In this document: piece after piece, positions 2,169 to 28,130 of the stretch
Numbering within the stretch: the first letter of the stretch is position 1
Layout of the letters: each line of letters opens with the position of its first letter
The notes under the pieces: generated by a model
What the model was told of the DNA's origin: nothing
Seen by the model: only the letters and a program-made list of their open reading frames with translations
Databases searched by the model: none
NCBI RefSeq assembly: GCF_022865125.1
Contig: NZ_CP094828.1
Span: forward strand, 992,001-1,056,000
Direction: 5' to 3'
Source: Acuticoccus sp. I52.16.1
GTDB lineage: Bacteria; Pseudomonadota; Alphaproteobacteria; Rhizobiales; Amorphaceae
Length of the DNA: 64,000 nt
Translations under genes and position numbers: made by a program

Positions 2169-2308
2169 AGGGGGCTCCCGGTTGCGCCATGATGGTGGCG
2201 GCCCCCGGCCCCGCCGGGTGTGCCGCCTCCATCGCTCAGCCCGAGGTTATCCCATTCGCGCCGCTTGTGAACCGGGGGGCGGGCGGCCTCCCCGGCTCCG
2301 ACGCCCCC

Positions 2309-3691: not shown

Positions 3692-3895
3692 GGGGGGTCT
3701 CCTGTCAGCATTCGGGGCGAGCCTACACGATGCGGCGAAGGCGCGGGGATGCAAAGTGGTCGGCCCGGCCCCGGCGCGACAGGGCCACACTTTGGGCGGC
3801 ACGATCCAACCTCCCTTATTGGCGTGGCCGCGCAGCTGGCCCATGCTGCGATCGCGCGATTGCATCCTGTGCCCACCCAACCCGAGAGGCCCGTC
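3692..3895. promoter_or_regulatory. Divergent promoter region between two aminotransferase genes
   Basis: A 204-bp gap separates the GTG start of the class III aminotransferase (minus strand) from the ATG of the class IV aminotransferase (plus strand), so both promoters must lie here. The segment around 3795-3830 is less GC-rich than its surroundings. I see no convincing -35/-10 pair or operator, so the call rests on gene arrangement. Confidence 0.45.
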
Positions 3896-4837: not shown

Positions 4838-4863
4838 CCCCAGCCGAGCGGTGTCCGCCGAAC

Positions 4864-6948: not shown

Positions 6949-7100
6949 GCAACTTCCCCCTCACCTGGCGATCTGGACCGAGCAACTGCGATGCCGGGTG
7001 GCGCCGCAGTGCGCCGCGGTCCGATCTTTTGGTCGCGCGGCCCTCAATCCAACCACGGCGGGAGCGCTCACAGTGGAGCCCTGGCGCGAGGAGGCCGGCG

Positions 7101-8009: not shown

Positions 8010-8080
8010 TCGCCGCCGCTCGACGCACTCCGTGCCCGGCCCCACACGGAGAGGAGGCCGGCCACGGGTTCTCTCCGAAG

Positions 8081-9856: not shown

Positions 9857-9882
9857 GCTCTCTCCTTCCGTGGGTCCGCCCG

Positions 9883-10632: not shown

Positions 10633-10835
10633 CGCCGTCCTCCGCGCGCCGCCGGTCCCGCCCGGCCCGGGTCGGCTTGCGAACCGCGGGCCAGTACCGC
10701 GCCGCCGGGCGCCGGATTCGCCGTGCCGCGGGTGAATGTCGCCTGCTGGCCAAAAGTTGTGCGCCGACGCCATAGTGCGTGACGCCCCGCGCGCGGCATG
10801 TGTGCGGGGTCTCCCCTCCAGACCCGAGTTGCACG
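10633..10835. promoter_or_regulatory. Divergent promoter region, SDR / GSAM-like aminotransferase
   Basis: A 203-bp gap between divergently transcribed SDR (minus) and aminotransferase (plus) genes must hold both promoters. The stretch 10740-10790 contains the least GC-rich bases. I could not identify a convincing -10/-35 pair or palindromic operator by eye. Confidence 0.4.
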
Positions 10836-13467: not shown

Positions 13468-15255
13468 TCAGGCGGCGAGACTCCGGCGGCGCGCTTCGGT
13501 GGCCGGGGCATCGATCGTCAACGTGTCGTCGTTCAGTGAGCCGGCGAAGACGACGCCGTAGACCGCGGTGGCCCGCTCCATCGTCTCGAACGATTCCAGC
13601 ACGTCTTTGAGCACCTTGCGCGGGTCGCGCTCCAGGGGGCTGCCGTAGCCGCCGCCGCCCGACTGGTTGCCCTTCACCTGCTCGCCCTTCTTGAGCTGGA
13701 TGACGGCGACGTTGGGCAGCTCCTCTTCCAGGCCGTTGGCGCTGACCTTGAAGTGCCGGCAGGCCATGCCCTCTTGCCCGCCGCGCACGCCCTTGGGCGG
13801 ATAATATGTGCCGTCGCAGGGGAAGATCACGTCCATCGGCTCCCCGCGCGGGCCGTAGCTGACCTCCAGGGTGGGCGCGCCGCGGTACTTGCCCGCCCCG
13901 CCGCTGCCGGGCTTCACCTTCAGGTACTTGAACTCGACCGGGTGCTTCAGCTCGTCGATCTCCACCGAGTCGCGGTACATCAGCCCGCCGACCACCGGGA
14001 TGCCGTAGGTCAGCCACCCGTCCGATACCGGCGTCCCCGGCCCGCCAGACGAGGTGATGATGAGCTGGTTCACGTAGGCCTCGTTGTCGTGCCGGTGGTC
14101 CTTGCCGGAGACCACCGCGAAGCCCGCGCCCATGCCGACGCCGCCTTCCGCGAGGCCCCACCCGTCGCCGATCTGCGCGAACGAGGACTGGGTGATGTTG
14201 ATCAGCCGATCGGCGACGTTGGTGGTCGCCAGCGAGCAGGAGTGCGGGAAGGCCGGCCGCCCCGCCACCGAGCCGTCGCGCAGCAGCAGGCGGATGCGGC
14301 GGAACGAGCCGGAGTTGCGCGGCACCGTCGGATCGATCCCGTTGAAGACACCGGAGAAGGTCGACGCGGTGACGCACGCCTCGCTCTCGTTGAAACCGCA
14401 GTCGACGTTGTCGACGTTGTCGCGCAGGTCCAGCTCGATGGTGGCGTCGTCGGGGTCGATGCGGACGGTGACGTTGAGGGGAATGCCCTCCGGCAGGAGA
14501 TCGCCGAACGGGTCGTGCGCCCCCTTGTTGACGAGGGTCGTCTTGGGCAGCTTCTTGATCGCCTGGATCATGCGCTGCTCGGAATAGTCGAACCAGTTCT
14601 TCAGGTGCGCCTTGATGGCCGCCTTGCCGTACTTCTCGCACAGTTCCTTGAGGCGCCGCTCGGCGACCCGGGCCGAGCCGATGCCGGCGAGGAAGTCGCC
14701 GTACCACTGCCCCGGCACGCGGATGCGCGAGCGGCACATGCGCACGATGTCGTCTTCCATCGTGTAGTCGCGCTGGATGCGCACGGCCGGGAAGATCAGC
14801 GCGCCCTCTTCGTACTGGTCCTTGGCGCCGGCCATGTAGGTGGTCGGCAGCGAGTTGCCGATGTCGGCCTGATGGGCCTTGGCGACGGCGGTGAATAGGT
14901 GCTCCCCCTCGAAGAAGACCGGGACGAGGAAGGTGTGGTCGGCGGCGTGAGTGCAGCCGGTATAGGGGTCGTTGTGGAGGTAGCAGTCGCCCTCCGCGAT
15001 GTCGTCGCCGTGCGCGTCGCACATCGCTTTTGCCTGCATATGGCTACCGAAGATGTGGATCGGCAGGCCTTCGGCGGAGGCGAGGAGCTGGTTGTCGGCG
15101 GTGCAGATGCCGCACGAAAAGTCCCGCGCGGAGTTGATCACCGCCGAGCGGCCGGCCTTCAGCAGCGTGTTCGTCATCTCGCGCACGATGCCGTCGATGC
15201 GGTTGGCGATGATCGCCGTCATGTAGGGGTCGAAGTCTTGCGGCATGTCGGTCAT
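13468..15255 (-). CDS. Hydantoinase/5-oxoprolinase family subunit B (HyuB-like), copy 2
   Basis: 595-residue HyuB homologue. Blocks visible are MTNTLLKAGRSAVINSARDFSCGICTADNQ, LHNDPYTGCTHAADHTFLVPV, AKAHQADIGNSLPTTYMAG, and the C-terminal NQSGGGGYGSPLERDP loop. It pairs with HyuA2, whose stop lies 11 bp upstream of this start, forming a standard hyuA-hyuB operon. The predicted role is ATP-dependent opening of a cyclic amide in the cytoplasm. It shares its architecture with copy 1 but differs at many positions by eye, so the two look like long-separated paralogues rather than a recent duplication. The substrate may therefore differ. Confidence 0.92.
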   Translation of the reverse strand: MTDMPQDFDPYMTAIIANRIDGIVREMTNTLLKAGRSAVINSARDFSCGICTADNQLLASAEGLPIHIFGSHMQAKAMCDAHGDDIAEGDCYLHNDPYTGCTHAADHTFLVPVFFEGEHLFTAVAKAHQADIGNSLPTTYMAGAKDQYEEGALIFPAVRIQRDYTMEDDIVRMCRSRIRVPGQWYGDFLAGIGSARVAERRLKELCEKYGKAAIKAHLKNWFDYSEQRMIQAIKKLPKTTLVNKGAHDPFGDLLPEGIPLNVTVRIDPDDATIELDLRDNVDNVDCGFNESEACVTASTFSGVFNGIDPTVPRNSGSFRRIRLLLRDGSVAGRPAFPHSCSLATTNVADRLINITQSSFAQIGDGWGLAEGGVGMGAGFAVVSGKDHRHDNEAYVNQLIITSSGGPGTPVSDGWLTYGIPVVGGLMYRDSVEIDELKHPVEFKYLKVKPGSGGAGKYRGAPTLEVSYGPRGEPMDVIFPCDGTYYPPKGVRGGQEGMACRHFKVSANGLEEELPNVAVIQLKKGEQVKGNQSGGGGYGSPLERDPRKVLKDVLESFETMERATAVYGVVFAGSLNDDTLTIDAPATEARRRSLAA

Positions 15256-15266
15256 GGCGGAGCCCC

Positions 15267-17345
15267 TTAGGCGATGTCGAGAAGGTAGTTGCCGGCGCCG
15301 GACACGGTCACGCTCATCGCGGGGTAGACGACGAGGGTGGTCGTCGGTTCCTCGATGATAGCGGGTCCGGCGATCCTCGCGCCCGGCTTCAGGTCGGCGG
15401 CCTTGTAGATCGGCGTCGTCAGCGGCGTGGCGTCGCCGAAGTAGCAGTCGCGCGTCGGCGTCGCCGCGCCGTTCAGCTTGAAGACCTCGACCTTGGGGGA
15501 CGAGACCGGGGGCGAGGCCTGGTGGCAGGTGAGGCGTGCCTTCCAGCTCACCACCTCCACCGGGCTCCCCTCGTCGCGCACCGCGAAGACGCGTTCGTGC
15601 GCCTGGTGGAAGGCCTCGACGAGCGCCGCGACGTCCGCCGGCCCCTCGAAACGGGACTTGGCGAGCGGGGTGTCCAGCTCCCAGATCTGCGACTGGTAGC
15701 GCGCCTCGGCGACGTACTCGACCGTGTAGGCGGCGGTGTCGCCGCCGGCGAGCGTGCGGCGGAAGGCGGCGAGGCGGGCCTCCAGCTCGGCCAAGGTCTC
15801 ATTGACGATCTCGGTGTCGAACCGGTTCGACTGGGTGACGTGGCTGGCGGCCTCCTCGGCGACGATGTCGGCGTACTGCATGCCGGCGGCGGAGAGCGCC
15901 GAGGCGATCTTCGGAAGGATGACGTTGCGGCAGCCCAGCTCCTTGGCGATCGTCATGATGTTGATGCCGGCCGCACCGCCGCCGGCGACGATGGTCGATT
16001 CGCGCGGGTTGAAGCCCTCGTTGATGGTGATGTCACCGATGGCGCGCACCATCAGGTCGCCGGCGAGCGACAGGATGCGGAACGCGGTCTCCTCCACCGT
16101 CATGCCGATCCGCTCGGCGACGGTGGTGATGGCAGTCCGCGCCGCCGCGACGTCGAGCGTCATGCGGCCGCCGAGGAAGTAGTCCGGGTCGAAGTAGCCG
16201 AGGACGGCCGCGGCGTCGGACACGGTGGGGAGCGTGCCGCCCTTGCCGTAGCAGGCCGGGCCCGGCTCGGCGCCGGCCGACTGCGGGCCGACGCGCATCA
16301 GGCCGCCTTCGTCGATCCAGGCGATGGAGCCGCCGCCGGCGCCGATGGAGCGCATGTCCACCGCCGAGATCCCCAGGAGGTCGCCGGTGTACATGCCGCC
16401 GAGCCAGGTGTCGCGCGTGAAGGTCAGCCGCCCGTCGCGCACCAGGCCGACGTCGAAGGTGGTGCCCCCGGTGTCGGCGACGATGACGTTCTCGCCGAGC
16501 GCCTCGAGCTGCGACAGCGAGAGCGCCGCGATGGGCGCCATCGCCGGGCCGGAGCCGACCGAGTAGATCGGCTTCTCGACCATGTTGGCGATCTGGTTGC
16601 AGCCGCCGGCGGTGGTGGAGATCAGGATCTCGCCGTCGTAGCCGGAGGCGCGCAGGTCCGCCTCGAGGCCCTTCAGGTGCTCCTGCATCAGCGGCTTCAG
16701 CGAGGCGTCGATGGCGGTGGCCGAGGCGCGGCGGTACTCGCGCACCACCGGGATCAGCCGGTGCGACAGCGTGTAAGGAACGCCCGGCAGCACCTCCTCG
16801 ATGAGGTCGGCGAAGGCGATCTCGTGCGCCGGATTGGCGATCGACCACAGGAAGCACACCGCGATCGCCTCGAACCCGCGCACCTTCAGCGTCTCCAACA
16901 CCTCGCGCGCCTGGCGGGCGTTGAACGGCACCGAGACGTCGCCCTCGGAGGTGATGCGCTCCTCCACCTCGAAGGTGTAGCGACGGGGGATGTAGGGCTC
17001 GGGGTATTCGTCGCGGAAGTCGTGCGGGTTGAACTTGCCGCCCTCCTTCAGCACCAGGATGTCGGGGAAACCCAGCGTGGTGACGAAGGCGGTCTTGGCG
17101 CAGGTCTTGGTGACGATGGCGTTGGTGGCGCGGGTCGTACCGTAGATGAGGCGCGTCGTGTTGCCGACCAGCTCGGCGAAGGGCAGGCCCAGCTCGTCGG
17201 CCGCCGCCTCGATCGCGCCGCGCATTCCGTTGAAGATGCGGTCGCGGGTGGTGAGCGCCTTGCCGATGGTGAGGGCGCCGGTCTCGTCGCTGACGACGAC
17301 GTCGGTGAACGTGCCCCCGGTATCGACGGAGATGTTGAATGGCAT
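15267..17345 (-). CDS. Hydantoinase/5-oxoprolinase family subunit A (HyuA-like), copy 2
   Basis: 692-residue HyuA homologue. DTGGTFTDV lies at residues 8-16, YGTTRATNAIV near 69, VADTGGTTFDVGLV near 290, RSIGAGGGSIAWIDEGG and GGGAAGINIMTIA later, all signatures of the actin-like ATP-binding fold of this family. A C-terminal AGPAIIEEPTTTLVVYP beta domain is complete. It is upstream of hyuB2 with an 11-bp gap and downstream of an ABC binding-protein gene across a 192-bp gap with an intrinsic terminator. The context (amino-acid-type importer, pxp cluster) supports cyclic amide or amino-acid-derivative degradation. Alternatives in the family include N-methylhydantoinase, caprolactamase and acetone-carboxylase-like enzymes. 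Confidence 0.92.
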   Translation of the reverse strand: MPFNISVDTGGTFTDVVVSDETGALTIGKALTTRDRIFNGMRGAIEAAADELGLPFAELVGNTTRLIYGTTRATNAIVTKTCAKTAFVTTLGFPDILVLKEGGKFNPHDFRDEYPEPYIPRRYTFEVEERITSEGDVSVPFNARQAREVLETLKVRGFEAIAVCFLWSIANPAHEIAFADLIEEVLPGVPYTLSHRLIPVVREYRRASATAIDASLKPLMQEHLKGLEADLRASGYDGEILISTTAGGCNQIANMVEKPIYSVGSGPAMAPIAALSLSQLEALGENVIVADTGGTTFDVGLVRDGRLTFTRDTWLGGMYTGDLLGISAVDMRSIGAGGGSIAWIDEGGLMRVGPQSAGAEPGPACYGKGGTLPTVSDAAAVLGYFDPDYFLGGRMTLDVAAARTAITTVAERIGMTVEETAFRILSLAGDLMVRAIGDITINEGFNPRESTIVAGGGAAGINIMTIAKELGCRNVILPKIASALSAAGMQYADIVAEEAASHVTQSNRFDTEIVNETLAELEARLAAFRRTLAGGDTAAYTVEYVAEARYQSQIWELDTPLAKSRFEGPADVAALVEAFHQAHERVFAVRDEGSPVEVVSWKARLTCHQASPPVSSPKVEVFKLNGAATPTRDCYFGDATPLTTPIYKAADLKPGARIAGPAIIEEPTTTLVVYPAMSVTVSGAGNYLLDIA

Positions 17346-17537: not shown

Positions 17538-18740
17538 CTATTTGAGGCGGAAGAGGACCTCGTAGGGGACCGGCTCGGAGACACGGTACTCGTCGACGAC
17601 CTTGTGCTCGTTGTCCTTGACCTCGACGATCATGTACGGCGCGTCGTTCTGGATGTGCAGCTTGTCGGAGAAGGTGCGCGGGCCGAGGATCGTCTCGGCG
17701 TCGGTATAGGTCTCCATGATCGGGACGACCTTGTCGGCGTCGGTGCTGCCGGCTTCCTCGACCGCCTTGGCCCACAGCTCCAGCCACGCGTAGGCGGGGT
17801 AGGTGTACTGCGTCACCGGCAGGCGCCCGAACTTCTCCTCGAAGTCGGCATTGAAGGCCTGAACCGCCTCGCGCGGGTCGTCACCGTAGATCGACGCCTG
17901 GACGGGGATGTAGAAGTCGGTCAGGTCCGGCACCGCGTCGGTCCAATAGGTGCCGTCCATCGACGAACCGTTGAGGATCGGCATGTCGAGACCCGAGGCG
18001 CGGAGCTGACGCACGGCCGAGGCGCCTCCCGGCACATAGGTGCACAGCATGATCGCGTCCGGCGCCTCCGGCAGGCTCTTGATCCGCGTGATCTGCGACT
18101 GGATCGACGGGTCGTCGTTCTTGAAGGTGTCGGACCCCAGGATCTCCAAGCCGTCCATTTTGCCGGCCGCCCAGTCGAACCCGGCGCAGACCGACTTATC
18201 GTACTCGATCGTGGTGTCGAGGAGGACGTAGGCGGTCTTCATGTCGAGGTTGGCGGCGGCCCACTCGGCCATCGTCGCGCCCTGCACCTGGGCGGCGATG
18301 GATGAGGTGAAGGCGTATTTGCCCGCGCCTTCGATGCCCGCCTTCGGGTCCTCGGCGCACAGGAACATGGAGACGATGTCGGCCTGCTGCGCGGCGATCG
18401 CGGCCGGCGCGCCGAAGTCGTAGTCGCAGGAGACGACGACGAGGTCGGCCCCCTCGCGCACCACGTCCTGGCCGGCCTTGGCGCCCTGCACGCGGTCGGA
18501 CTTGGTGTCGGAGGTGACGAAGCTCACCTCCCGCCCCAGAAGGCCGCCTTTTTCGTTCTGGTTGTCGATCCACAGCTTCACGGCGTTGCTCGAGTCGCCG
18601 TCGTAGGCGACCATGAAGCCGCTCTCGGCGATGGCGAGGCCGACGACGATCGGATCGTCGGCCCTGGCGGGGGCGGCCGCCATCCAGATCGTCGCCGCCA
18701 GCGCCGCGAGCGCGACACCCGTGTTCCTAGTCCGCGTCAT
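17538..18740 (-). CDS. ABC transporter substrate-binding protein, branched-chain amino acid type (LivK-like)
   Basis: 400 residues with a Sec signal peptide (MTRTRNTGVALAALAATIWM, cleavage expected after ARA at about residue 27). A type I periplasmic-binding fold begins DDPIVVGLAIAESGFMVAYDGDSSNAVKLW. It should capture an amino-acid-like or amide ligand in the periplasm for LivHMGF. The open frame runs upstream, but ATG 18740 has CAGGAG before it and begins the signal peptide. It is divergent from livG across a 493-bp regulatory gap and followed by a terminator, then hyuA2-hyuB2. This ties import to ring opening. Confidence 0.92.
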   Translation of the reverse strand: MTRTRNTGVALAALAATIWMAAAPARADDPIVVGLAIAESGFMVAYDGDSSNAVKLWIDNQNEKGGLLGREVSFVTSDTKSDRVQGAKAGQDVVREGADLVVVSCDYDFGAPAAIAAQQADIVSMFLCAEDPKAGIEGAGKYAFTSSIAAQVQGATMAEWAAANLDMKTAYVLLDTTIEYDKSVCAGFDWAAGKMDGLEILGSDTFKNDDPSIQSQITRIKSLPEAPDAIMLCTYVPGGASAVRQLRASGLDMPILNGSSMDGTYWTDAVPDLTDFYIPVQASIYGDDPREAVQAFNADFEEKFGRLPVTQYTYPAYAWLELWAKAVEEAGSTDADKVVPIMETYTDAETILGPRTFSDKLHIQNDAPYMIVEVKDNEHKVVDEYRVSEPVPYEVLFRLK

Positions 18741-19233: not shown

Positions 19234-20001
19234 ATGACGGTTCAGATCAGCGATCCGCCGCCCTCGTCCGCCGCGGTGGACGCCGCCGTGTTCCGCGCCG
19301 AGAACATCTCCGTCCAGTTCGGCGGGCTCAAGGCGATCTCCGAAGTCAGCCTCGAAGTCGAGCGGCACCAGGTGTTCGGCCTCATCGGCCCCAACGGTGC
19401 CGGCAAGACGACCCTCGTCAATTGCCTGACCGGTTTCCAGCGCCCGACCGCCGGCAAGGTCACGCTGGCCGGAGCCGACACCACCGGCTGGTCGCCGACG
19501 CGCTTCCGCAAGGCCGGCATCGGCCGCACCTTCCAGGCCGGACGGCTGTTCCGTGACATGACGGTCTTGGAAAACGTCGAGGTCACCGCCGCGGCGCTGG
19601 GGCTGTCGCGCCGCCAGGCCCGCCTCTATGCGATGGAGATGCTGGGCTGGCTCGGCATCGCCCACGACGCCGAACGCCTCTGCGGGGGCCTGCCCTACAC
19701 CGACGAGCGCCGCGTCGGCATCGCCCGCGCGCTGCTCCTCAAACCCGCATTCGTCCTGCTCGACGAGCCCGCCGCCGGCATGTCCGACCACGAGTGCGAC
19801 ACGCTCATGCACCTCGTGCGCGAGATCCCCAAGGTCCACGGCTGCGGCGTGCTGCTGATCGAGCACAACATGCGCGTCATCATGGGCCTGTGCGACCGCA
19901 TTCACGTGCTGGACGGGGGGCGCACCATCGCCGACGGCCCGGCCCGCGAGGTGCAGAAGGACCCCACGGTCATCGCCGCCTACCTCGGAGCCGCCGCATG
20001 A
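19234..20001 (+). CDS. livG: Branched-chain amino acid type ABC transporter ATP-binding protein (LivG)
   Basis: 255-residue cytoplasmic ATPase. Walker A GPNGAGKTT is at residues 52-60, Walker B AFVLLDEPAAGM and the switch His in LLIEHNM follow, and GRTFQAGRLF is the LivG-type Q-loop. The signature motif is unusual: it reads LPYTDERR, whereas LivG proteins normally keep a Gly at the fourth position (LSYGQ/LPYGD). It is first in the livGFHM-pxp run; its stop overlaps the livF start by ATGA. The start is ATG 19234, with GCAGGAG upstream. It should energise uptake of the ligand delivered by the divergent binding protein. Confidence 0.92.
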   Translation: MTVQISDPPPSSAAVDAAVFRAENISVQFGGLKAISEVSLEVERHQVFGLIGPNGAGKTTLVNCLTGFQRPTAGKVTLAGADTTGWSPTRFRKAGIGRTFQAGRLFRDMTVLENVEVTAAALGLSRRQARLYAMEMLGWLGIAHDAERLCGGLPYTDERRVGIARALLLKPAFVLLDEPAAGMSDHECDTLMHLVREIPKVHGCGVLLIEHNMRVIMGLCDRIHVLDGGRTIADGPAREVQKDPTVIAAYLGAAA

Positions 20002-20750
20002 CCGACACGCCGATGCTGAGCGTCGCCGAACTGGAGGTGCGCTACGGCCGCCTGATCGCCGTGCGCGACGTCTCGCTTACCGTCGCGACGGGCGAGATCG
20101 TGTGCATCGTCGGCCCCAACGGCGCCGGCAAGTCGACCACGCTGGCCGCCGTCGCCGGCGGTGTCCCCAAGGTGCGCGGGACCGTGACCCTCGCGGGCCA
20201 GGACATCAGCGCCATGAAACCGGAGAACATCGCCAAGCTGGGCGTGTCGCTGGTGCCGGAGGGGCGGCACGTGTTCGCCTCCCTCACCGTCGAGGACAAC
20301 TTGCGCGTCGGCACCTTCATGCGCGGCAAGGTGGACGTCGCGGCCGAGATGGACCGCGTCTTCACCCACTTCCCCCGCCTCGCCGAGCGGCGCAAGCAGG
20401 CGGCCGGCAAGCTCTCGGGCGGGGAGCAGCAGATGCTCGTCATCGGCCGTGCGTTGATGACCGCACCCAAGATCATCCTGGTCGACGAGCCGTCGCTGGG
20501 CCTCGCGCCGATGATCATCGACCAAGTCTACGCCATCCTCGTCGAGCTGCGCGAGCGCGAGGGGCTGACCCTCCTCATCAACGAGCAGTCGTCCGAGCGG
20601 ATGCTGAAGTTCGCCGACCGCATCTACGTCATGCGCGAAGGGCTGATGCAGCTCGAGGGCACCCGCCGCGAGCTGGAGGACGGCAAGGCGATCCAGAGCG
20701 CCTACTTCGGCTTCGACGCGCACACCGCCACGATGGAGGTCGCCGAGTGA
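19998..20750 (+). CDS. livF: Branched-chain amino acid type ABC transporter ATP-binding protein (LivF)
   Basis: 250 residues. Walker A GPNGAGKST lies at residues 39-47, a canonical signature LSGGEQQML and Walker B IILVDEPSLGLAP follow, and the LivF-typical LLINEQSSERML closes the switch region. It forms the ATPase pair with LivG on the cytoplasmic face. The start overlaps the livG stop (ATGA), and its own stop overlaps the livH GTG (GTGA), so translation of the three genes is coupled. Its intact signature contrasts with the altered one in LivG. Confidence 0.95.
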   Translation: MTDTPMLSVAELEVRYGRLIAVRDVSLTVATGEIVCIVGPNGAGKSTTLAAVAGGVPKVRGTVTLAGQDISAMKPENIAKLGVSLVPEGRHVFASLTVEDNLRVGTFMRGKVDVAAEMDRVFTHFPRLAERRKQAAGKLSGGEQQMLVIGRALMTAPKIILVDEPSLGLAPMIIDQVYAILVELREREGLTLLINEQSSERMLKFADRIYVMREGLMQLEGTRRELEDGKAIQSAYFGFDAHTATMEVAE

Positions 20751-21661
20751 TCCCGTTCCTCCAGAACCTCATCGACGCCGTCAGCCTGGGGAGCCTCTAT
20801 GCGCTGGCGGCGCTGGGCATCGGGCTCCTCTTCGGCATCCTGCGCCTCATCAACTTCGCGCATGGCGACTTCATCACCATAGGCGCCTACGCGCTGATCG
20901 TGCCCTCGACCGACGCGGTGGCGCGCATGTTCATCGGCGGCTGGAACTTCATTCCGCTGACGCTCGCCGTCATCCTGGTATGCGTCGCCGCGGCGCTGCT
21001 GTCCGACCGGCTCCTCTTCCGCCACCTGCGCACCGCCAACCCGGCGACGCTGATGGTCGCGTCCTTCGCGCTCGGCTACGTGATCCAGAACCTGCTGCTG
21101 ATGATCTATGGCGCGCGGCCCAAGGCGGTCGGCCTGTGGTCCTCGCTGACCCAGATCGTCGAGATCGGGGCGCTGCGCGTGCCGCTGCTGCAACTCATCA
21201 TCATCTGCGTGACGCTCGCCCTCCTCCTCGGCCTCACCCTCTTCATGACGTACACGCGCTACGGCGTGCAGATGCGGGCGGCCTCCGAGGACTTCGTCAT
21301 GGCCCGCTATCTCGGCATTCGCGCCGACTTCGTCATCGCCCTCGCCTTCGCGATCTCCGGCATGCTCGCCGCCCTCGTCTCGCTGCTGTTCATCACGCAG
21401 ACCGGGGTGCTCTCGCCTCGCATCGGCGTCAGCCTGATGATCTTCGCCTTCGTCGCGACCGTCATCGGCGGCATGGGATCGCTCGCGGGCGCCGTCATCG
21501 GCGGGTTCGTCGTCGGCATCACCAGCGCGATGTTGCAGGCCTACCTCCCGCCCGACATCCGCCCCTTCCGCGACGCCTTCGTGTTCGCGATCGTCATCCT
21601 CATCCTGCTCGTGCGGCCGTCCGGCATCGTGCGTGTCAAAGCGCTGACCGAACGGGTCTGA
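20747..21661 (+). CDS. livH: Branched-chain amino acid type ABC transporter permease (LivH)
   Basis: 304-residue inner-membrane permease with about eight hydrophobic segments. The family opening LGSLYALAALGIGLLFGILRLINFAHGDF, the FRHLR-type loop and the ATPase-contact region MRAASEDFVMARYLGIR (EAA-like) are present, and GGMGSLAGAVIGGFVVG lies near the C-terminus. It starts at GTG 20747 overlapping the livF stop. It forms the transmembrane channel with LivM. Confidence 0.94.
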   Translation: MIPFLQNLIDAVSLGSLYALAALGIGLLFGILRLINFAHGDFITIGAYALIVPSTDAVARMFIGGWNFIPLTLAVILVCVAAALLSDRLLFRHLRTANPATLMVASFALGYVIQNLLLMIYGARPKAVGLWSSLTQIVEIGALRVPLLQLIIICVTLALLLGLTLFMTYTRYGVQMRAASEDFVMARYLGIRADFVIALAFAISGMLAALVSLLFITQTGVLSPRIGVSLMIFAFVATVIGGMGSLAGAVIGGFVVGITSAMLQAYLPPDIRPFRDAFVFAIVILILLVRPSGIVRVKALTERV

Positions 21662-21672
21662 AGGAGCCACCG

Positions 21673-22779
21673 ATGTCTTCTGCCAACATGACCCCCGCGA
21701 AGCCGGGCGCCGGCGAGATAGTGCGCTGGGCCTGGCCGGCCGCGCTCCTCAGCCTGCTCATCCTCGCCATCGCCGTCCTCACCTTCGCCGCCGACTCCGG
21801 CGGCCTGGAACAGACCATCACCGAGATGCTGATCCGCGTCGTCGTGGTGGTCGGCATGTACGTCTTCATCGGCAACTCGGGCATCCTGTCGTTCGGGCAC
21901 ATCGGCTTCATGGCGATCGGGGCCTACGCCTCCGCCTGGCTCACCTGCTGCACGCTGCCGATGGTCAAGCCGCTCTACCTGCCGGGCCTGCCGGAATATC
22001 TGAAGACGACCAGTCAGCCCTTCCTCGTCGGCATCGTGGGAGGGGCGGCGCTGGCGGGCGCGGTGGCCCTCGTCGTCGGCGCGCCGCTGATGCGCCTGCG
22101 CGGCATCGGCGCCTCCATCGCGACGTTCGCGCTGCTGGCCATCATCAACACCGTCTACGGCAACTGGGATTCGGTGACGGCGGGCGCCAGCTCGATCGCC
22201 AACATCCCCGTCGTGGTGAGCTACTGGGTGGCGGCGATCTTCGCCATCGCGGCGATCTGGATCGCCTATGCCTACCAGCAGTCCAAGTACGGGCTGATGC
22301 TGCGCGCCGTGCGCGACGACGAGGTCGCCGCCAACGCCTCGGGCGCGGAGGCGGTGGGACTGCGGCTCGGCGCGTTCGTCCTGTCGGGCGCGCTGGTGGG
22401 CGTCGGCGGTGTGCTCCACGCCAACTTCCTCGGCATCCTGACGATCGACGCCTTCTACCTCGGCATCACCTTTCTCACGCTGGCGATGCTCATCATCGGC
22501 GGCATCGGCAGCCTCACCGGCGCGGTGATCGGCGTCGTGTTCGTGACCTTCGTCGTGGAGGTCTTGCGCGCGCTGGAGAACGGCGTGACCATCGCCGAAA
22601 CGGTGATCGAACTGCCCAAGGGGCTCCAGGAAGTCGGGCTCGGTCTCATCATGATCGTCATCCTGCTGACGCGCCCGGCCGGCCTCACCAAGAGCCGCGA
22701 GATCCCCTTCCCCTTCGGTCGCCGCCGCGGCAAGGACGCGACGCCGGAGCACCCCGTCGCCGCCCAGCCGGCCGAGTAG
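21673..22779 (+). CDS. livM: Branched-chain amino acid type ABC transporter permease (LivM)
   Basis: 368-residue permease with roughly ten hydrophobic segments and the LivM hallmarks GNSGILSFGHIGFMAIGAYASAWLT, LRGIGASIATFALLAII, RAVRDDEVAANASG and IGGIGSLTGAVIG. The charged C-terminal tail (about 30 residues) is cytoplasmic. The start ATG 21673 follows AAGGAGCC and lies 11 bp after livH. The next gene, pxpA, starts 25 bp after its stop with a strong Shine-Dalgarno, so the transporter and the oxoprolinase-type genes form one operon. Confidence 0.94.
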   Translation: MSSANMTPAKPGAGEIVRWAWPAALLSLLILAIAVLTFAADSGGLEQTITEMLIRVVVVVGMYVFIGNSGILSFGHIGFMAIGAYASAWLTCCTLPMVKPLYLPGLPEYLKTTSQPFLVGIVGGAALAGAVALVVGAPLMRLRGIGASIATFALLAIINTVYGNWDSVTAGASSIANIPVVVSYWVAAIFAIAAIWIAYAYQQSKYGLMLRAVRDDEVAANASGAEAVGLRLGAFVLSGALVGVGGVLHANFLGILTIDAFYLGITFLTLAMLIIGGIGSLTGAVIGVVFVTFVVEVLRALENGVTIAETVIELPKGLQEVGLGLIMIVILLTRPAGLTKSREIPFPFGRRRGKDATPEHPVAAQPAE

Positions 22780-22804: not shown

Positions 22805-23587
22805 ATGGCGATGACGTCGGTCGACATCAACTGCGACATGGGCGAGGGCTTCGGCCACTGGCAGTATGGCGACGCGCCCGACGCGGCGTTGATGGCGGTC
22901 ATCAGCTCCGCCAACGTCGCCGCCGGCTACCACGCGGGCGACCCCAACATCATGGACGAGGTGGCCCGCCTGTGCGCCGAGCACGGCGTCGGCCTCGGCG
23001 CGCACCCCGGCTACGGCGACCGGCAGGGCTTCGGCCGGCGGGTGATCGACGCCGCCCCCGCCGAGCTGGTGAACGACATCCTCTACCAGACCGGCGCGAT
23101 CCGCGAGTTCGGCCGCCGCTACGGCATCCCGCTCCGGCATGTGAAGCCGCACGGCGCGCTCTACATGACCGCCGCCAACGACGCGGAGCTGTCGCGCCTC
23201 CTGGTGAAGGCGCTGCGCAAGACCGACCCGGACGCCGCCCTCTACTGCATGGGTCCGTCCGAGACCTTCCGCATCGCGCAGGTGGCCGGCCAGCCCACCG
23301 TGCGCGAGCTCTTCGCCGACCGCGACTACGACGCGTCCGGCCAGATCGTGTTCGCCCGCAAGATGCGCCGGCTCGACCCGCAGGCGGTCGCCGAGAAGTG
23401 CCTGCGCGCCTGCACCGAGGGCACTGTCGTGACCGTCGACGGCGAGACGATCGCGCTACCGTTCGAGTCCATCTGCTTCCACTCCGACACGCCCGGCGCG
23501 CTCGAGATCGGCACCGCCATCCACGAGACGCTGACCGGTGCGGGCATCACCATCGCCCCGCCGCCCCGCGTCGCCGCCGCCGCCTGA
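22805..23587 (+). CDS. pxpA: 5-oxoprolinase subunit PxpA (LamB/YcsF family)
   Basis: 260 residues, family-typical length. DINCDMGEGFG at residues 7-17, SANVAAGYHAGDP, GAHPGYGDRQGFGRR and HVKPHGALYM carry the conserved Asp, Glu and His residues of the YcsF TIM-barrel-like fold. The C-terminal IALPFESICFHSDTPGA is also conserved. PxpA with PxpB and PxpC forms the prokaryotic ATP-dependent 5-oxoprolinase in Bacillus. An upstream in-frame ATG exists at 22784, but ATG 22805 is preceded by GGAAAGGAGG and is preferred. Here it is separated from pxpB/pxpC by biotin carrier and carboxylase genes. Confidence 0.93.
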   Translation: MAMTSVDINCDMGEGFGHWQYGDAPDAALMAVISSANVAAGYHAGDPNIMDEVARLCAEHGVGLGAHPGYGDRQGFGRRVIDAAPAELVNDILYQTGAIREFGRRYGIPLRHVKPHGALYMTAANDAELSRLLVKALRKTDPDAALYCMGPSETFRIAQVAGQPTVRELFADRDYDASGQIVFARKMRRLDPQAVAEKCLRACTEGTVVTVDGETIALPFESICFHSDTPGALEIGTAIHETLTGAGITIAPPPRVAAAA

Positions 23588-23619
23588 TCCCCGCTCGCCC
23601 GTCTCACCCGAGGACACAC

Positions 23620-23856
23620 ATGGCCAAAGAGATCCGCTCGCCGCTGCCCGGCACCTTCTACCGCAAGCCCTCGCCGGACGATCCGCCGTTCGTCGAGGAC
23701 GGCGGGTCGGTCGAGGTCGGCACCACCATCGGCCTCGTCGAGGTGATGAAAAGCTTTCACGAGGTGAAGGCCGAGGAGGCGGGCACCAACGTCGTCTTCA
23801 AGGTCGAGAACGAGGACCCGGTGATGGCCGGCCACATCCTCGCCGAGATGGACTGA
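23620..23856 (+). CDS. Stand-alone biotinyl carrier domain protein (BCCP-like)
   Basis: 78 residues, essentially only the biotinyl/lipoyl hammerhead domain: SPLPGTFYRKPSPD at the start, the carrier motif VEVMKSFHEV with the modified Lys expected at residue 44, and a closing HILAEMD strand. It lacks the long N-terminal region and linker of AccB, so it is a shortened, dedicated carrier. It lies 32 bp after pxpA and 9 bp before the biotin carboxylase. I infer that it carries carboxybiotin between that carboxylase and the PxpB/PxpC-type carboxyltransferase. A role in fatty-acid synthesis is less likely given the operon. Confidence 0.9.
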   Translation: MAKEIRSPLPGTFYRKPSPDDPPFVEDGGSVEVGTTIGLVEVMKSFHEVKAEEAGTNVVFKVENEDPVMAGHILAEMD

Positions 23857-23865
23857 CCCGCCGGC

Positions 23866-25245
23866 ATGTCCGCGCCCGGCGACCTTTCCGGCAAGACCCT
23901 CTTCGTCGCCAATCGCGGCGAGATCGCGGTGCGCATCGTCCGTGCCGCCAAGGCGCTGGGCCTTCGCACGGTGCAGGCGCACTCGGACGCGGATGCCGAC
24001 ATGCTGGCCGTCCGCCTCGCCGACGCGGCCGTCTCGGTCGGCCCACCCCAGGCGGCGAAATCGTACCTGAACATCGAGCGCGTCGTCGCCGCCGCCCAGG
24101 AGGCCGGCGCCGACGCGGTCCACCCCGGCTACGGCTTCCTCGCCGAGAACGCGACGTTCGCCGCGGCGGTGGAAGCGGCGGGGATGATCTTCGTCGGCCC
24201 CTCCGCGGAGACGATTGCGAAGATGGGCGACAAGGTCGCCGCCAGGAACGCTGCGCGCGCGGCGAACGTCCCCATCACCCCCGGCTCCGAAGGCCGGCTC
24301 GACGGGCTCGACGCCGCCCGCGCCGTCGCGGGCGAGATCGGCTTCCCGCTGATGATCAAGGCGGCGGCGGGCGGGGGCGGGCGCGGCATCCGCGTCGCGC
24401 ACGACCGGGACGAACTCGCCCGGCTGGTCCCCCAGGCCGAGGCCGAGGCGCGGGCAGCGTTCGGCGACGGCGGCCTCTACATCGAGCGGTTCGTCCCCCG
24501 CGCCCGCCACATCGAGGTGCAGGTGCTGGGCGACGGGACGCGCGCCGTCCACCTCTTCGAGCGCGAATGCTCGCTCCAGCGCCGCCGGCAGAAGGTGTGG
24601 GAGGAGGCCCCGTCCGCCTCGCTCTCACCGCAGGAGCGCGAGGAGATCTGCGCCGCCTCCGTGCGCCTCGCCGAGGCGGCCGCTTACAAGGGCGCCGGCA
24701 CGCTGGAGTACCTGTTCGACGACGAGGAACGGCGCTTCTCGTTCCTCGAAATGAACACCCGCATCCAGGTCGAGCACCCCGTCACCGAGGCGATCACCGG
24801 CATCGACCTCGTGGCCGAGATGATCCGCATCGCCTTCGGCGCGCCCCTGCGCCTCGCACAGGAGGACATCGCGATCACCGGCCACGCCATCGAGGTGCGC
24901 ATCAACGCCGAGGACCCGGCCAAGGACTTCATGCCCTTCCCCGGCGTGTGCGGCGCGATCCACGTGCCGGCGGACGTGCGCTTCGACACGCTCCTCTACG
25001 AGGGCTACCAGATCCCTCCCTTCTACGATTCGCTGCTCGGCAAGCTCGTCGTCCACGGCGCGTCCCGCATGGAGGCGATCACCCTCCTGCGCGAGGCGCT
25101 CGCCCGCACCGGCTTCGAGGGCCTCGTCACCACGCTGGCCCTGCACGAGGCGCTCGCCGCCGAGGGCGACGTCATCGGCAACCGCATCCACACCAACTGG
25201 CTCGAGGAATGGCTCGCCACGAAGCCCTTCGAGGCGACATCATGA
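23866..25245 (+). CDS. Biotin carboxylase subunit (AccC-type)
   Basis: 459-residue ATP-grasp enzyme. The N-terminal KTLFVANRGEIAVRIVRAAKALG, HPGYGFLAENATFA, the glycine loop KAAAGGGGRGIRV (about residues 162-174), the ECSLQRRRQK block and the catalytic FLEMNTRIQVEHPVTE region are all intact, as is the C-terminal biotin carboxylase domain. It should carboxylate biotin on the preceding carrier protein using ATP and bicarbonate. It is embedded between the carrier and pxpB homologue, so it is probably a dedicated copy rather than the housekeeping AccC. The start ATG lies 9 bp after the carrier stop. Confidence 0.92.
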   Translation: MSAPGDLSGKTLFVANRGEIAVRIVRAAKALGLRTVQAHSDADADMLAVRLADAAVSVGPPQAAKSYLNIERVVAAAQEAGADAVHPGYGFLAENATFAAAVEAAGMIFVGPSAETIAKMGDKVAARNAARAANVPITPGSEGRLDGLDAARAVAGEIGFPLMIKAAAGGGGRGIRVAHDRDELARLVPQAEAEARAAFGDGGLYIERFVPRARHIEVQVLGDGTRAVHLFERECSLQRRRQKVWEEAPSASLSPQEREEICAASVRLAEAAAYKGAGTLEYLFDDEERRFSFLEMNTRIQVEHPVTEAITGIDLVAEMIRIAFGAPLRLAQEDIAITGHAIEVRINAEDPAKDFMPFPGVCGAIHVPADVRFDTLLYEGYQIPPFYDSLLGKLVVHGASRMEAITLLREALARTGFEGLVTTLALHEALAAEGDVIGNRIHTNWLEEWLATKPFEATS

Positions 25246-25261
25246 CGGGAGGCGCCGCCAC

Positions 25262-26137
25262 ATGAAGACCCGCTACTCCTACGGAGGCGACGAGCACATC
25301 TTCGTCGAGGTGGACGACGAGATGAGCCTCGACGCCTTCTTCAAGGCGCTCTCCATCACCGGCGCGGTCGCCGAGAAGAAGATCCCCGGCGTCACCGAGA
25401 TCTGCCCCGCCAACGCCTCCTTCCAGGTGAAGTTCGACCCCGACGTCATCGCCCCCGAGACGATGATGGAGACGCTGAAGTCGCTTGAGGCGGAAGCCGC
25501 CGAGACCCCCAACCGGATGACGACGCGCATCATCGAGGTGCCGGTCTACTACCAGGACCCTTGGACGCACGAGACCCTGATGCGCTTCCGGGAGCGCCAC
25601 CAGGACCCGGCGGGCAGCGATCTCGACTACGCCGCCCGCGTCAACGGGTTCGCCAGCGTGGCGGCGTTCATCGAGGCGCACCACGCCAACCCGTGGTTCG
25701 TCTCCATGGTGGGGTTCGTGTCGGGGCTGCCGTTCCTCTACCAGCTCGTCGAGCGCGAGCGGCAGCTCCAGGTGCCCAAATATCTGCGCCCGCGGACCGA
25801 CACGCCCAAGCTCACCGTCGGCTACGGCGGGTGCTTCGCCTGCATCTACTCGGTGCGCGGGGCAGGCGGATATCAGATGTTCGGCATCACCCCGATGCCG
25901 ATCTACGACCCGACGCAGACCGTCTCCTACATGAAGGACTTCATGGTCTTCTTCCGGCCGGGCGACATCGTGAAGTGGGACCCGATCGACCGGGCCGAGC
26001 ACGACCGCATCGAGGCGGCGGTGCGGGACGGGACGTGGACGCCGAAGATCGCCGAGGTGGAGTTCGACCTCGCCGCCTTCAACGCCGACGTCGACGGCAC
26101 CAACAAGCGACTGATGGAGGCGCTCCATGCCGGCTGA
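25262..26137 (+). CDS. pxpB: PxpB/KipI-family protein (carboxyltransferase subdomain A type)
   Basis: 291 residues, longer than typical KipI/PxpB (about 240). The fold is recognisable from VEVDDEMSLDAFFKAL, IIEVPVYYQDPWT (residues 90-102), NPWFVSMVGFVSGLPFLYQL, RPRTDTPKLTVGYGG and PGDIVKW. After PGDIVKW about 50 extra residues follow, including DGTWTPKIAEVEFDL. By recollection this resembles the tail of urea-carboxylase carboxyltransferase domains. The usual GGxxGIYP loop is replaced by YGGCFACIYSV, with Cys191 and Cys194. Its end overlaps the pxpC homologue by 11 bp. The assignment to 5-oxoprolinase proper is therefore less sure than the fold. Confidence 0.85.
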   Translation: MKTRYSYGGDEHIFVEVDDEMSLDAFFKALSITGAVAEKKIPGVTEICPANASFQVKFDPDVIAPETMMETLKSLEAEAAETPNRMTTRIIEVPVYYQDPWTHETLMRFRERHQDPAGSDLDYAARVNGFASVAAFIEAHHANPWFVSMVGFVSGLPFLYQLVERERQLQVPKYLRPRTDTPKLTVGYGGCFACIYSVRGAGGYQMFGITPMPIYDPTQTVSYMKDFMVFFRPGDIVKWDPIDRAEHDRIEAAVRDGTWTPKIAEVEFDLAAFNADVDGTNKRLMEALHAG

Positions 26138-27104
26138 GATCGAGGTCATCAAGCCCGGCATCCTGACGACGATCCAGGACCTCGGGCGCCCCGGCTACTT
26201 CCACCTCGGCATCCCGATGGGCGGGGCGATGGACCGCCTCGCCTTCGAGGCCGCCAACCGCCTCGTCGGCAACCCGGAGGACGCGGCGGGCCTCGAGGCG
26301 GTCTTCATCGGCCCCGAGATCGCCTTCCGCTCGGACGCCACCGTGGCCGTGACCGGCGCGACGATGCCGATCAGGATCGACGGCGAGGAGAAACCCGGCT
26401 GGACGGCGCTCGCGGTGAAGGCGGGGCAGACCCTCTCGTTCGGCTACCTCCAGGACGGCGCGCGCATCTACATCGCGATCTCCGGCGGCATCGCCACCGA
26501 GCCGATGCTGGGCTCGCGCTCGACCTACGCGATCGGCGCCCTGGGCGGGGTCGGCGGGCGCGCGGTGGCGGCGGGCGACGTGATCCCGCTCGGCGAGGCG
26601 GCGGGCGCCGCGGAGGGTCGGTCCGTGCCCGAGGCGCTCAGGCGCAAGCCGGGCAGCCCGGCGGAGATCCGCGTGCTCCCCGGCCTCTACTGGCACCGCA
26701 TCACGCCGGCCTCGCAGGCGAACTTCTTCGCCGACACCTGGATGGTCGCGGCCGAGGCCGACCGCATGGGCTACCGCTTCAAGGGCGGCCGGCCGCTGGA
26801 GTTCGTGCCGCGCGAGCCGCCGTTCGGCGCCGGCTCGGACCCGTCCAACATCGTCGACGGGTGCTATCCCTACGGCTCGATCCAGGTGCCGGGCGGGACC
26901 GAGCCGATCTGCCTCCACCGCGACGCGGTCTCGGGCGGCGGCTACTTCATGATCGGCACGGTGATCTCGGCCGACATGGACCTCATCGGCCAGCTCCAGC
27001 CCAACGTGAAGGTGACGTTCATCGAGGTGGACATGCCGGCCGCGCTCGCCGCCCGCAAGGCCCGCGCGGCGCTGGTGGAGGAGATGCGCGCCGCGCTCGC
27101 CTGA
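26127..27104 (+). CDS. pxpC: PxpC/KipA-family protein (carboxyltransferase subdomain B type)
   Basis: 325 residues, usual family length. It has the opening IEVIKPGILTTIQDLGRPGYFHLGIPMGGAMDRLAFEAANRLVGN, then VTGATMPIRIDGEE, IAISGGIATEPMLGSRSTYAIGALGG, and the C-terminal DRMGYRFKGG and PPGG-like VPGGTEPICLHRDAVSGGGY blocks. These match the biotin-dependent carboxyltransferase/KipA family. It is expected to form a heterodimer or larger complex with the PxpB homologue, whose reading frame it overlaps by 11 bp. It is the last gene of the livGFHM-pxp operon. No strong terminator follows; a 7-bp GC hairpin lies at 27114-27129. Confidence 0.9.
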   Translation: MPAEIEVIKPGILTTIQDLGRPGYFHLGIPMGGAMDRLAFEAANRLVGNPEDAAGLEAVFIGPEIAFRSDATVAVTGATMPIRIDGEEKPGWTALAVKAGQTLSFGYLQDGARIYIAISGGIATEPMLGSRSTYAIGALGGVGGRAVAAGDVIPLGEAAGAAEGRSVPEALRRKPGSPAEIRVLPGLYWHRITPASQANFFADTWMVAAEADRMGYRFKGGRPLEFVPREPPFGAGSDPSNIVDGCYPYGSIQVPGGTEPICLHRDAVSGGGYFMIGTVISADMDLIGQLQPNVKVTFIEVDMPAALAARKARAALVEEMRAALA

Positions 27105-27231: not shown

Positions 27232-27273
27232 ATGATGACCCGCCGCCGCACCGCCCGTGGGGCGTTCCATTGA
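27232..27273 (+). CDS. Putative 13-codon upstream ORF coupled to the CitE-like gene
   Basis: A GGGAGG sequence sits just before ATG 27232, which starts a 13-codon frame (MMTRRRTARGAFH). Its TGA stop overlaps the ATG of the following lyase gene (TGATG). It may be a short leader that couples translation, or simply an alternative initiation site. The downstream gene has no obvious Shine-Dalgarno of its own. A near-palindrome TAAAC-GG-GTTTA lies upstream at 27153-27164. No independent function is claimed. Confidence 0.35.
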   Translation: MMTRRRTARGAFH

Positions 27274-28130
27274 TGCGCTCGTTCCTGTTCGTGCCGGGCG
27301 ATTCGGAGAAGAAGCTCGCCAAGGCCTACGATTCGGGCGCCGACGTCGTCATCCTCGACCTCGAGGACTCGGTCTCGGCCGACCGCAAGGCCGCCGCGCG
27401 GGGTCTCGTCGCGGAGGCGGCGACGGACGCGCCCGGCTACGTCGCCGTTCGCGTCAACGCGCTGGACACCGGCCTCGTCGACGACGACCTCGCCGCGGTG
27501 ATGGGCGCGCGCCCGGCGATGATCGTGCTGCCGAAGAGCGAGACGGGGGCGGACGTGGCGCACCTGGGGGCCAAGCTCTCGGTGGCGGAGGCCGAGGAGG
27601 GGATCGCCGAGGGGGCGACGAAGGTGCTCGCGATCGCGACGGAGACGGCGCGGGCGATGTTCGGTCTCGGCACCTACGATGCGGCCGGCCCACGGCTCGC
27701 GGCGATGACGTGGGGGCTGGAGGACCTGTCGGCGGCGCTCGGCGTGTCGCGCACGCGCGACGAGGCGGGCCGCATCACCGCGGCGTTCGCGCATGCGCGC
27801 ACGCTGTGCCTCGCCGGCGCCAAGGCGGCCGGCGTGTTGCCGATCGATTCCGTCTATACCGACTTCCGCGACCTGGACGGCCTCGCCGCAGAGGCGCGCG
27901 AGGCGGCGGCGGACGGCTTCCTGGGCAAGCTGGCGATCCACCCTGCGCAGGTGGCGGTCATCAACGAGGCGTTCACCCCGTCGCCCGAGGCGGTCGCGGC
28001 GGCCAAGCGCATCGTCGCCGCGTTCGACGCCGCGCCCGGAGCCGGCGTCGTCTCGCTGGACGGCAAGATGGTGGACCGCCCGCACCTCGTGAACGCGCAG
28101 CAGCTGCTGGCCCGCGCCGGCGAGGGCTGA
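27273..28130 (+). CDS. CoA ester lyase-like protein (HpcH/HpaI, CitE family)
   Basis: 285 residues of the CitE-like TIM-barrel lyase family. It opens RSFLFVPGDSEKKLAKAYDSGADVVILDLEDSV, followed by VRVNALDTG, a MIVLPKSE strand, ATETARAMFG, TWGLEDLSAALG (metal-binding Glu/Asp) and the C-terminal GKLAIHPAQVAVINEAFTPS. Relatives split malyl-, citramalyl- or beta-methylmalyl-CoA, or hydrolyse such CoA thioesters. It follows the pxp operon by 168 bp and may process the acid formed there or belong with methylmalonyl-CoA metabolism; neither is proven. The start is ATG 27273; TTG 27270 is a less likely alternative. Confidence 0.9.
   Translation: MRSFLFVPGDSEKKLAKAYDSGADVVILDLEDSVSADRKAAARGLVAEAATDAPGYVAVRVNALDTGLVDDDLAAVMGARPAMIVLPKSETGADVAHLGAKLSVAEAEEGIAEGATKVLAIATETARAMFGLGTYDAAGPRLAAMTWGLEDLSAALGVSRTRDEAGRITAAFAHARTLCLAGAKAAGVLPIDSVYTDFRDLDGLAAEAREAAADGFLGKLAIHPAQVAVINEAFTPSPEAVAAAKRIVAAFDAAPGAGVVSLDGKMVDRPHLVNAQQLLARAGEG

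Follow-up and report, generated by a model that had tools for sequence, protein, structure and literature searches.

The window examined here is a 64,000-nucleotide stretch of the Acuticoccus sp. I52.16.1 genome (contig NZ_CP094828.1, positions 992,001 to 1,056,000), and coordinates below count from its first letter. At 22805-27104 it carries five genes in one run behind the importer genes livGFHM: a pxpA-like gene, a gene for a 78-residue biotin carrier, one for biotin carboxylase (BC), and two for PxpB- and PxpC-like carboxyltransferase subunits. This layout had been proposed from the sequence alone, and open reading frames (ORFs) and family searches confirmed it. Spacing is tight, with 25 nucleotides (nt) between livM and pxpA, then 32 nt to the carrier gene, 9 nt to the BC gene, 16 nt to pxpB, and an overlap between pxpB and pxpC (-11 nt). 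Throughout, PxpB-type sequences and their loci are called Lys-type or Arg-type after the residue aligned with K1605 of K. lactis urea amidolyase. The features of the run are:

22805-23587, + strand: pxpA-like gene, LamB/YcsF family, 260 amino acids (aa); PF03746 at 284.5 bits, NF003814 at 280.5 bits (cut-off 226); on the Lys-type side of the PxpA tree
23620-23856, + strand: biotin carboxyl carrier, 78 aa; NF005457 at 118.5 bits (cut-off 87); aligns with the E. coli biotin carboxyl carrier protein (BCCP)
23749-23751, + strand: codon of Lys44 (in EVMKSF), the lysine predicted to carry biotin, aligned with K122 of E. coli BCCP
23866-25245, + strand: BC, 459 aa; NF009471 at 716.3 bits (cut-off 686)
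25262-26137, + strand: PxpB-like carboxyltransferase subunit (CT_C_D), urea-carboxylase type, 291 aa; PF02682, urea_carbox score above PxpB score, tree position
25778-25780, + strand: codon of Lys173, the predicted equivalent of K1605 of K. lactis urea amidolyase, from alignment and a column survey
26127-27104, + strand: PxpC-like carboxyltransferase subunit (CT_A_B), urea-carboxylase type, 325 aa; PF02626 and TIGR00724 over cut-off, tree position

The sequence-only reading had recognized the five-gene set correctly, but its naming of the last two genes as pxpB and pxpC did not hold if these names imply the 5-oxoprolinase type, because both products score higher to urea carboxylase. The PxpB-like protein reached 119.8 bits to urea carboxylase vs. 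68.8 to PxpB (TIGR00370, missing its cut-off of 145.55), and the PxpC-like protein 233.3 vs. 200.8 to PxpC_5OPro (NF045499, missing its cut-off of 500). As a control, E. coli PxpB scored 355.6 bits to PxpB and 24.4 to urea carboxylase, while a second, classical PxpB encoded in the window genome scored 109.9 and 24.7. This classical protein also falls below the TIGR00370 cut-off, so the cut-off test is weak on its own. No single window protein reached the 1304-bit cut-off of the urea carboxylase model TIGR02712.

A single alignment column separates the two kinds of carboxyltransferase more clearly. K1605 of the yeast (K. lactis) urea carboxylase is reported as a general base in the available text of PMC5770610, and Lys173 of the window PxpB aligns on this residue (numbering verified). 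Among 187 PxpB-type sequences, the column holds Lys in 128 and Arg in 59. The Lys sequences comprise 100 from split genes with a BC within 6 kb, 24 fused urea carboxylases, and four without a BC at that distance; by the same rule, 48 of the Arg sequences lack a BC and 11 have one. Among the Lys-type loci without a nearby BC, L100 and L137 begin at contig ends with only a BC fragment, and in L143 the BC lies ~8 kb off. One Arg-type locus, L144, was scored as lacking a BC although a BC start lies at the end of its sequence, and it would be the 12th with one. As 80 of the loci had been picked for their likeness to the window, an even draw from 150 genomes of the window's phylum (Pseudomonadota) gives a fairer count: across 69 places, the window included, a BC lay in cis at 26 of 26 Lys-type places (21 fused, 5 split) vs. 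9 of 43 Arg-type places (34 without). The Fisher p of ~1e-11 comes mostly from the fused ones, with split places alone giving 5/5 vs. 9/43. A strict rule that Lys-type means BC and Arg-type means none was rejected, given the 11 of 59 Arg-type loci with a BC, the BC start in L144, and one Lys-type locus, L045, without a BC in the 20 kb examined.

The sequence-only reading had also suggested placing PxpB and PxpC in a tree with urea carboxylase. In our tree of the joined proteins (116 rows, quick method, SH-aLRT support only), all 57 Lys rows fall on one side of a branch (SH-aLRT 100) and the other 59 rows are all Arg. The window pair is on the urea-carboxylase side, outside the group of 24 fused urea carboxylases (100) and within a window-type group of 27 rows (100), which haloarchaeal and Rhodococcus rows join (30 rows, SH-aLRT 100). 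Many positions that are fixed within each group differ between window-type and urea-carboxylase rows. An AlphaFold model of PxpB alone had a mean pLDDT of 66, and a fold search with this weak model, usable as a ranking only, placed urea amidolyase/urea carboxylase as the best PDB matches, ahead of E. coli YbgJK.

The window BC shares 48% identity with E. coli AccC and retains 14 of 15 AccC active-site residues; H236 is replaced by Arg. The Met-Lys pair around the predicted biotinylation site is retained in all 94 carriers examined, of which the Arg-type L144 contributes one and Lys-type loci the other 93. The carrier also has a thumb-like insert, YRKPSPDDPPF. The genome holds six BC-type genes, the window's included, and one other (L055) adjoins its own BCCP; the biotin/lipoate ligase family has one match. 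From their retained residues, the BC and carrier look functional, and K44 would be the residue that is biotinylated.

The history of the BC appears to differ from that of the carboxyltransferase. In a BC tree, window-type BCs lie on the AccC side with Rhodococcus beside them (92), the L044 and L046 BCs join those of urea carboxylases (91), and the haloarchaeal ones cluster with BCs from Arg-type fused loci (99). BCs of Lys-type loci are therefore found in several parts of the tree, indicating that BC was apparently recruited more than once. Judged from these sequences, it seems that the same kind of carboxyltransferase took up a BC repeatedly. We rejected the idea that BC and carboxyltransferase were inherited as one unit, since the haloarchaeal and L044/L046 BCs group elsewhere on the BC tree.

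PxpA divides along the same line as the carboxyltransferase. In a quick-method tree of 89 PxpA rows, one change splits the 38 Lys-type-linked from the 51 Arg-type-linked rows (SH-aLRT 96). We then compared residues across 98 Lys-type and 51 Arg-type PxpAs, deriving what counts as “classical” in PxpA, as for PxpB, from classical sequences within this analysis. Many conserved polar residues common to both types (e.g., N9, D11, E14, H43, H67, K114, H116, D172, H226, and D228, in window numbering) are probably catalytic, as their conservation suggests. By contrast, Cys40, Asn121, and Arg184 occur in 100% of Arg-type PxpAs and are replaced in most Lys-type ones, and position 227 is Gly in 96% of the Arg type and Ser in 95% of the Lys type. 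The window PxpA has Ala40, Met121, Ala184, and Ser227 instead of the classical Cys, Asn, Arg, and Gly. The PxpAs of window-type loci form two subgroups, one of 16 rows that also includes L044 and one of 17 (both supported at 100), while their PxpB/PxpC form one group. It may be that the two PxpA subgroups reflect a module serving two substrates.

A scan of the genome collection turned up at least 553 stretches that code for relatives of the carboxyltransferase, and we examined the best 80. The complete set, in the order pxpA-carrier-BC-pxpB-pxpC, was present in 73 of them (66 by ORF starts and seven by aligned parts, three of which hold extra PxpA- or PxpB/PxpC-type pieces). Six of the remaining seven start with the BC at a contig end; the other, L133, has no detected carrier, and its pxpA and BC frames are split. 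Recurrence in 73 of 80 loci indicates that the gene arrangement is not due to chance, and the comparison across genomes suggested by the sequence-only reading thus found the order conserved. That reading would have been damaged by carboxylase genes lying separately in relatives, but the BC was next door in window-type loci wherever the contig was long enough. By title, the best 80 belong mostly to alphaproteobacterial genera, with one metagenome-assembled genome (L093) labelled Gammaproteobacteria. Across the window's class, the carrier family NF005457 scored over its cut-off in 21 of 289 genomes.

The set was also followed in closer and more distant settings. Among 10 close-type loci from nine genomes, the five genes are adjacent in eight, one is cut by the contig, and one has pxpA ~6 kb away. 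The same order occurs on plasmids of Rhizobium johnstonii, Azospirillum lipoferum, Acidiphilium multivorum, and Methylobacterium aquaticum. The genes are reshuffled yet nearby in the haloarchaea Haladaptatus and Natronorubrum and in Rhodococcus jostii RHA1, where two halves lie several genes apart. In this last locus (L143, plasmid pRHL2), repeated bacterial microcompartment sets (BMC, EutN/CcmL) at 1795-8725, accompanied by aminotransferase and aldehyde dehydrogenase genes, lie a few kb from the module. In L125, extra PxpA-, PxpB-, and PxpC-like pieces at 3905-5912, just upstream of the complete set, are perhaps a second or decayed copy.

Classical pxpABC genes were found as well. The window genome has a separate classical copy with no BC in the 16 kb examined around it. 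Of the 16 genomes examined that carry a Lys-type split locus, seven (G000, G004, G007, G018, G058, G126, and G203) also have classical pxpABC, with Arg verified at the key column in every one, and it was not found in the other nine. Coexistence in seven of the 16 indicates that the module is no mere substitute for the classical enzyme.

A second biotin-linked kind of locus has Arg-type PxpB/PxpC (L158, L163, L171, L176, L177, L180, and L225 at 7899-11227). PxpB and PxpC are fused together in six of these seven and separate in L177; PxpA is present, and the adjoining BC matches a Klebsiella BC-carrier fusion. D-glutamate cyclase and an NRAMP transporter are present too in L158, L177, and L225. 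A Lactiplantibacillus plantarum plasmid (L224:9872-16146) carries pxpB-pxpC-carrier-BC-D-glutamate cyclase-pxpA-NRAMP in one run, again with an Arg-type PxpB. Gene content suggests that the seven Arg-type loci encode a biotin-linked system for 5-oxoproline, different from the window module. In addition, PDB entry 9yx5 is, by its title, mycobacterial MSMEG_0435-0436, of PxpB/PxpC type, bound to a long-chain acyl-CoA carboxylase, and its PxpB stretch is Arg-type. This is an independent sign that the PxpB/PxpC family, Arg-type included, can bind biotin enzymes.

The genes around the five-gene run were considered for substrate hints. In the window these are:

19998-22779, + strand: livF (19998-20750), livH, and livM, a predicted branched-chain-amino-acid/amide type ABC importer; ORFs, named by sequence inspection
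17538-18740, - strand: periplasmic binding protein (Peripla_BP_6), divergent from livG; family searches
15267-17345, - strand: HyuA-like (hydantoinase/oxoprolinase/caprolactamase alpha family); scores under the cut-offs of all three NCBIfam equivalogs matched
13468-15255, - strand: HyuB-like (hydantoinase B/oxoprolinase family); scores under the cut-offs of both NCBIfam equivalogs matched

The livG ORF, likewise named by inspection, lies directly upstream of livF and ends at 20001. On the other side, a CitE/HpcH-HpaI-type lyase gene at 27270-28130 begins 165 nt 3′ of pxpC and has a single match among the 80 relative loci (L107, 33% identity).

Across relatives, we counted neighbours within 6 kb of PxpB, with families found by BLAST using a few cluster members and one member per cluster run against Pfam; the p values ignore relatedness and multiple testing. 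Genes of the biotin transporter family bioY occur near 12 of 104 Lys-type split loci vs. 0 of 48 Arg-type loci without BC, 0 of 11 with BC, and 0 of 24 fused urea carboxylases (12/104 vs. 0/83, uncorrected p = 0.0013). In the Acidiphilium copy, bioB follows 322 nt after pxpC. HyuA was near 15 of 104 Lys-type split loci vs. 1 of 48 Arg-type loci without BC and 0 of 11 with BC (p = 0.011), and a Peripla_BP_4 binding protein near 48 of 104 vs. 0 of 59 Arg-type loci. D-glutamate cyclase (PF07286) showed the opposite pattern, at 0 of 104 vs. 3 of 48 and 4 of 11, respectively (p = 0.0006). An amidase (two queries, one cluster) was near 4 of 104 Lys-type split loci and 2 of 48 Arg-type loci without BC vs. 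16 of 24 fused urea carboxylases, and there was no allophanate-hydrolase-type amidase among nine window proteins scanned. Counted over the whole stretch, a LysR-type regulator cluster was present in 66 of 97 gene-called window-type loci. The surroundings in R. johnstonii include an allantoate-amidohydrolase-type enzyme, an annotated amidase, and a deacetylase-family protein with weak similarity to the allantoinase PuuE. As judged from gene content, the neighbours favour a role in the use of cyclic-amide or ureide nitrogen.

Binding proteins were tried as a route to the substrate and set aside. The nearest solved chains to the window protein, matched with a low score, are named as Leu/Ile/Val, branched-chain amino acid, or amino acid/amide binding proteins. 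For the Peripla_BP_4 proteins of relatives, the nearest solved structures are the CUT2 protein 4yhs and TorT, from which no substrate follows.

That a complete split carboxylase is encoded here is supported by these sequence comparisons. The tree, the K1605-equivalent lysine, the BC and carrier residues, the linkage, and the co-dividing PxpA lend good support to the earlier description, in which a split enzyme of urea-carboxylase type is combined with PxpA. We consider it quite probable that the five genes encode a split biotin-dependent N-carboxyltransferase plus a hydrolase, with PxpA in the place of allophanate hydrolase and a cyclic amide, imide, or urea, rather than 5-oxoproline, as the probable substrate. 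By analogy with urea carboxylase followed by allophanate hydrolase, BC would consume ATP and bicarbonate in carboxylating the biotin of the 78-residue carrier, PxpB/PxpC, in complex and with Lys173 as general base, would transfer the CO2 onto an imported small molecule at an amide or ureido nitrogen, and PxpA would then hydrolyse the activated N-carboxylated C-N bond, after which the product would lose CO2. The chemistry predicted earlier, in which an imported cyclic amide or a urea-like nitrogen would be carboxylated first and the ring opened afterwards, is plausible.

Several observations weigh against this interpretation. The Lys-type relative L045 (PxpB/PxpC at 8738-11447, with PxpA) has no BC in the 20 kb examined; it may borrow one from elsewhere in its genome, where a second Lys-type locus, L046, has a BC. 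Likewise, BC and carrier genes adjoin 11 of 59 Arg-type PxpB/PxpC, so BC linkage is no proof of Lys-type chemistry. The K1605 equivalence depends on an alignment of distant proteins, and the PxpB model has a pLDDT below 50 at residues 171-229, which include K173. Eighty of the loci were chosen for their resemblance to the window, and L035 and L060 are the same contig, meaning that those counts are not independent, and the trees come from quick methods. Finally, HyuA is near only 15 of the 104 loci and the importers differ, making the substrate hint weak.

If the chemistry were the same but the substrate L- or D-5-oxoproline, the module would be a biotin-dependent 5-oxoprolinase. PxpA, PxpB, and PxpC are all homologous to 5-oxoprolinase, no classical copy was found in nine of the 16 examined genomes that carry a Lys-type split locus, and D-glutamate cyclase and NRAMP genes beside some Arg-type biotin-linked loci point to 5-oxoproline there. 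However, D-glutamate cyclase is near none of the 104 Lys-type split loci vs. 7 of 59 Arg-type loci, the window genome and six of 15 others keep classical pxpABC, and the window PxpA has Ala, Met, and Ala in place of the residues invariant in 51 classical PxpAs (Cys40, Asn121, and Arg184). We therefore regard this reading as unlikely. Further down in probability is a reading in which the module is a split carboxylase for urea or guanidine, supplying ammonia for assimilation, and PxpA is an incidental neighbour. It agrees with the position of the carboxyltransferase on the urea-carboxylase side of the tree, with weak, below-cut-off matches of the window binding protein to urea-binding proteins, and with a SAR11 cluster of similarly annotated genes described as possibly urea-degrading in the accessible text of PMC10308929. 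Yet the queried amidase is far rarer near split loci (4/104) than near fused urea carboxylases (16/24), the group-fixed positions differ, and PxpA is present in 73 of 80 loci and in the broken copy L133 (the other six being cut) and co-divides with the carboxyltransferase, all of which make this account very improbable.

The NCBI names, which call the carrier and BC acetyl-CoA carboxylase, would fit spare parts of that enzyme merely adjoining a 5-oxoprolinase operon. The genome, however, has a separate BCCP and BC pair (L055), there was no AccA/AccD-type protein among nine neighbours scanned (AccA/AccD were looked for among these only, not elsewhere in the genome), and the linkage persists in other phyla and through reshuffling. 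The probability left to this reading, already disfavoured, is close to negligible. For the split N-carboxyltransferase with PxpA, a cyclic amide or urea is the likely substrate, and 5-oxoproline or urea itself less so.

The five-gene set resembles several known systems without coinciding with any. The PxpABC 5-oxoprolinase itself was reportedly described in a discovery paper by Niehaus in 2017. Fused urea carboxylase/urea amidolyase (BC-CT-BCCP, CT being the carboxyltransferase; K. lactis 3va7 and 5i8i) shares with the window a BC, CT_A_B plus CT_C_D, a biotin carrier, the predicted general-base lysine, the side of the tree, and the best fold matches. By contrast, the window has five separate genes, a 78-aa BCCP-like carrier, a PxpA, and no usual allophanate-hydrolase-type amidase, and its BC lies away from urea-carboxylase BCs on the tree. 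The ATP-dependent PxpABC 5-oxoprolinase (E. coli ybgJKL; C. glutamicum pxpTABC, from the available part of PMC13274462) has homologous PxpA, PxpB, and PxpC in an operon. However, classical PxpABC has Arg in place of the lysine in 59 of 59 sequences surveyed, the window PxpA lacks the classical invariant residues, and there is no BC or carrier beside the E. coli pxp genes or the second, classical copy of the window genome. C. glutamicum needs pxpTABC for growth on 5-oxoproline, and the term “carboxylase” is absent from the main text of that source in its available form (PMC13274462). Arg-type PxpB/PxpC with BC and BCCP (Lactiplantibacillus, Klebsiella plasmids, and other genomes) likewise bring PxpA, PxpB/PxpC, BC, and carrier together, but those sets have a classical carboxyltransferase and PxpA, carry D-glutamate cyclase at a distance of up to 6 kb in 4 of 11 cases, and form no single tree group. 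The ATP-dependent lactamases, caprolactamase CapAB and HyuAB (PMC8453981), also open amide rings with ATP, and HyuAB-like genes lie near the window operon; these lactamases are unrelated proteins and have no biotin carrier.

A SAR11/HIMB59 FArhodopsin cluster contains biotin-dependent carboxyltransferase, carboxylase, and PxpA-like genes, for which the authors suggest urea degradation (PMC10308929); we liken it to the window set by gene description. For Lactiplantibacillus pentosus, the available portion of PMC12427679 lists an extra BCCP plus BC and pxpB/pxpC and does not join them. In the open-licence literature, which leaves most subscription journals outside its scope, we found no paper treating the five genes as one enzyme.

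A broader proposal, to which we give somewhat less than an even chance, is that these loci form a distinct class of biotin enzyme in which CO2 serves to activate the substrate and is discarded afterwards: on a split urea-carboxylase core, a lactam, imide, or cyclic urea would be N-carboxylated and then opened by a dedicated PxpA clade. Such a system would be common among Alphaproteobacteria, marine ones included, and haloarchaea and actinobacteria would share it. Annotated records name the parts as acetyl-CoA carboxylase, allophanate hydrolase or carboxyltransferase, and 5-oxoprolinase. If the proposal is true, a biotin enzyme and a nitrogen-scavenging pathway would have been overlooked because these names hide the complex, and the two types could be used directly to study amide activation by PxpB/PxpC with biotin (Lys) and in its absence (Arg).

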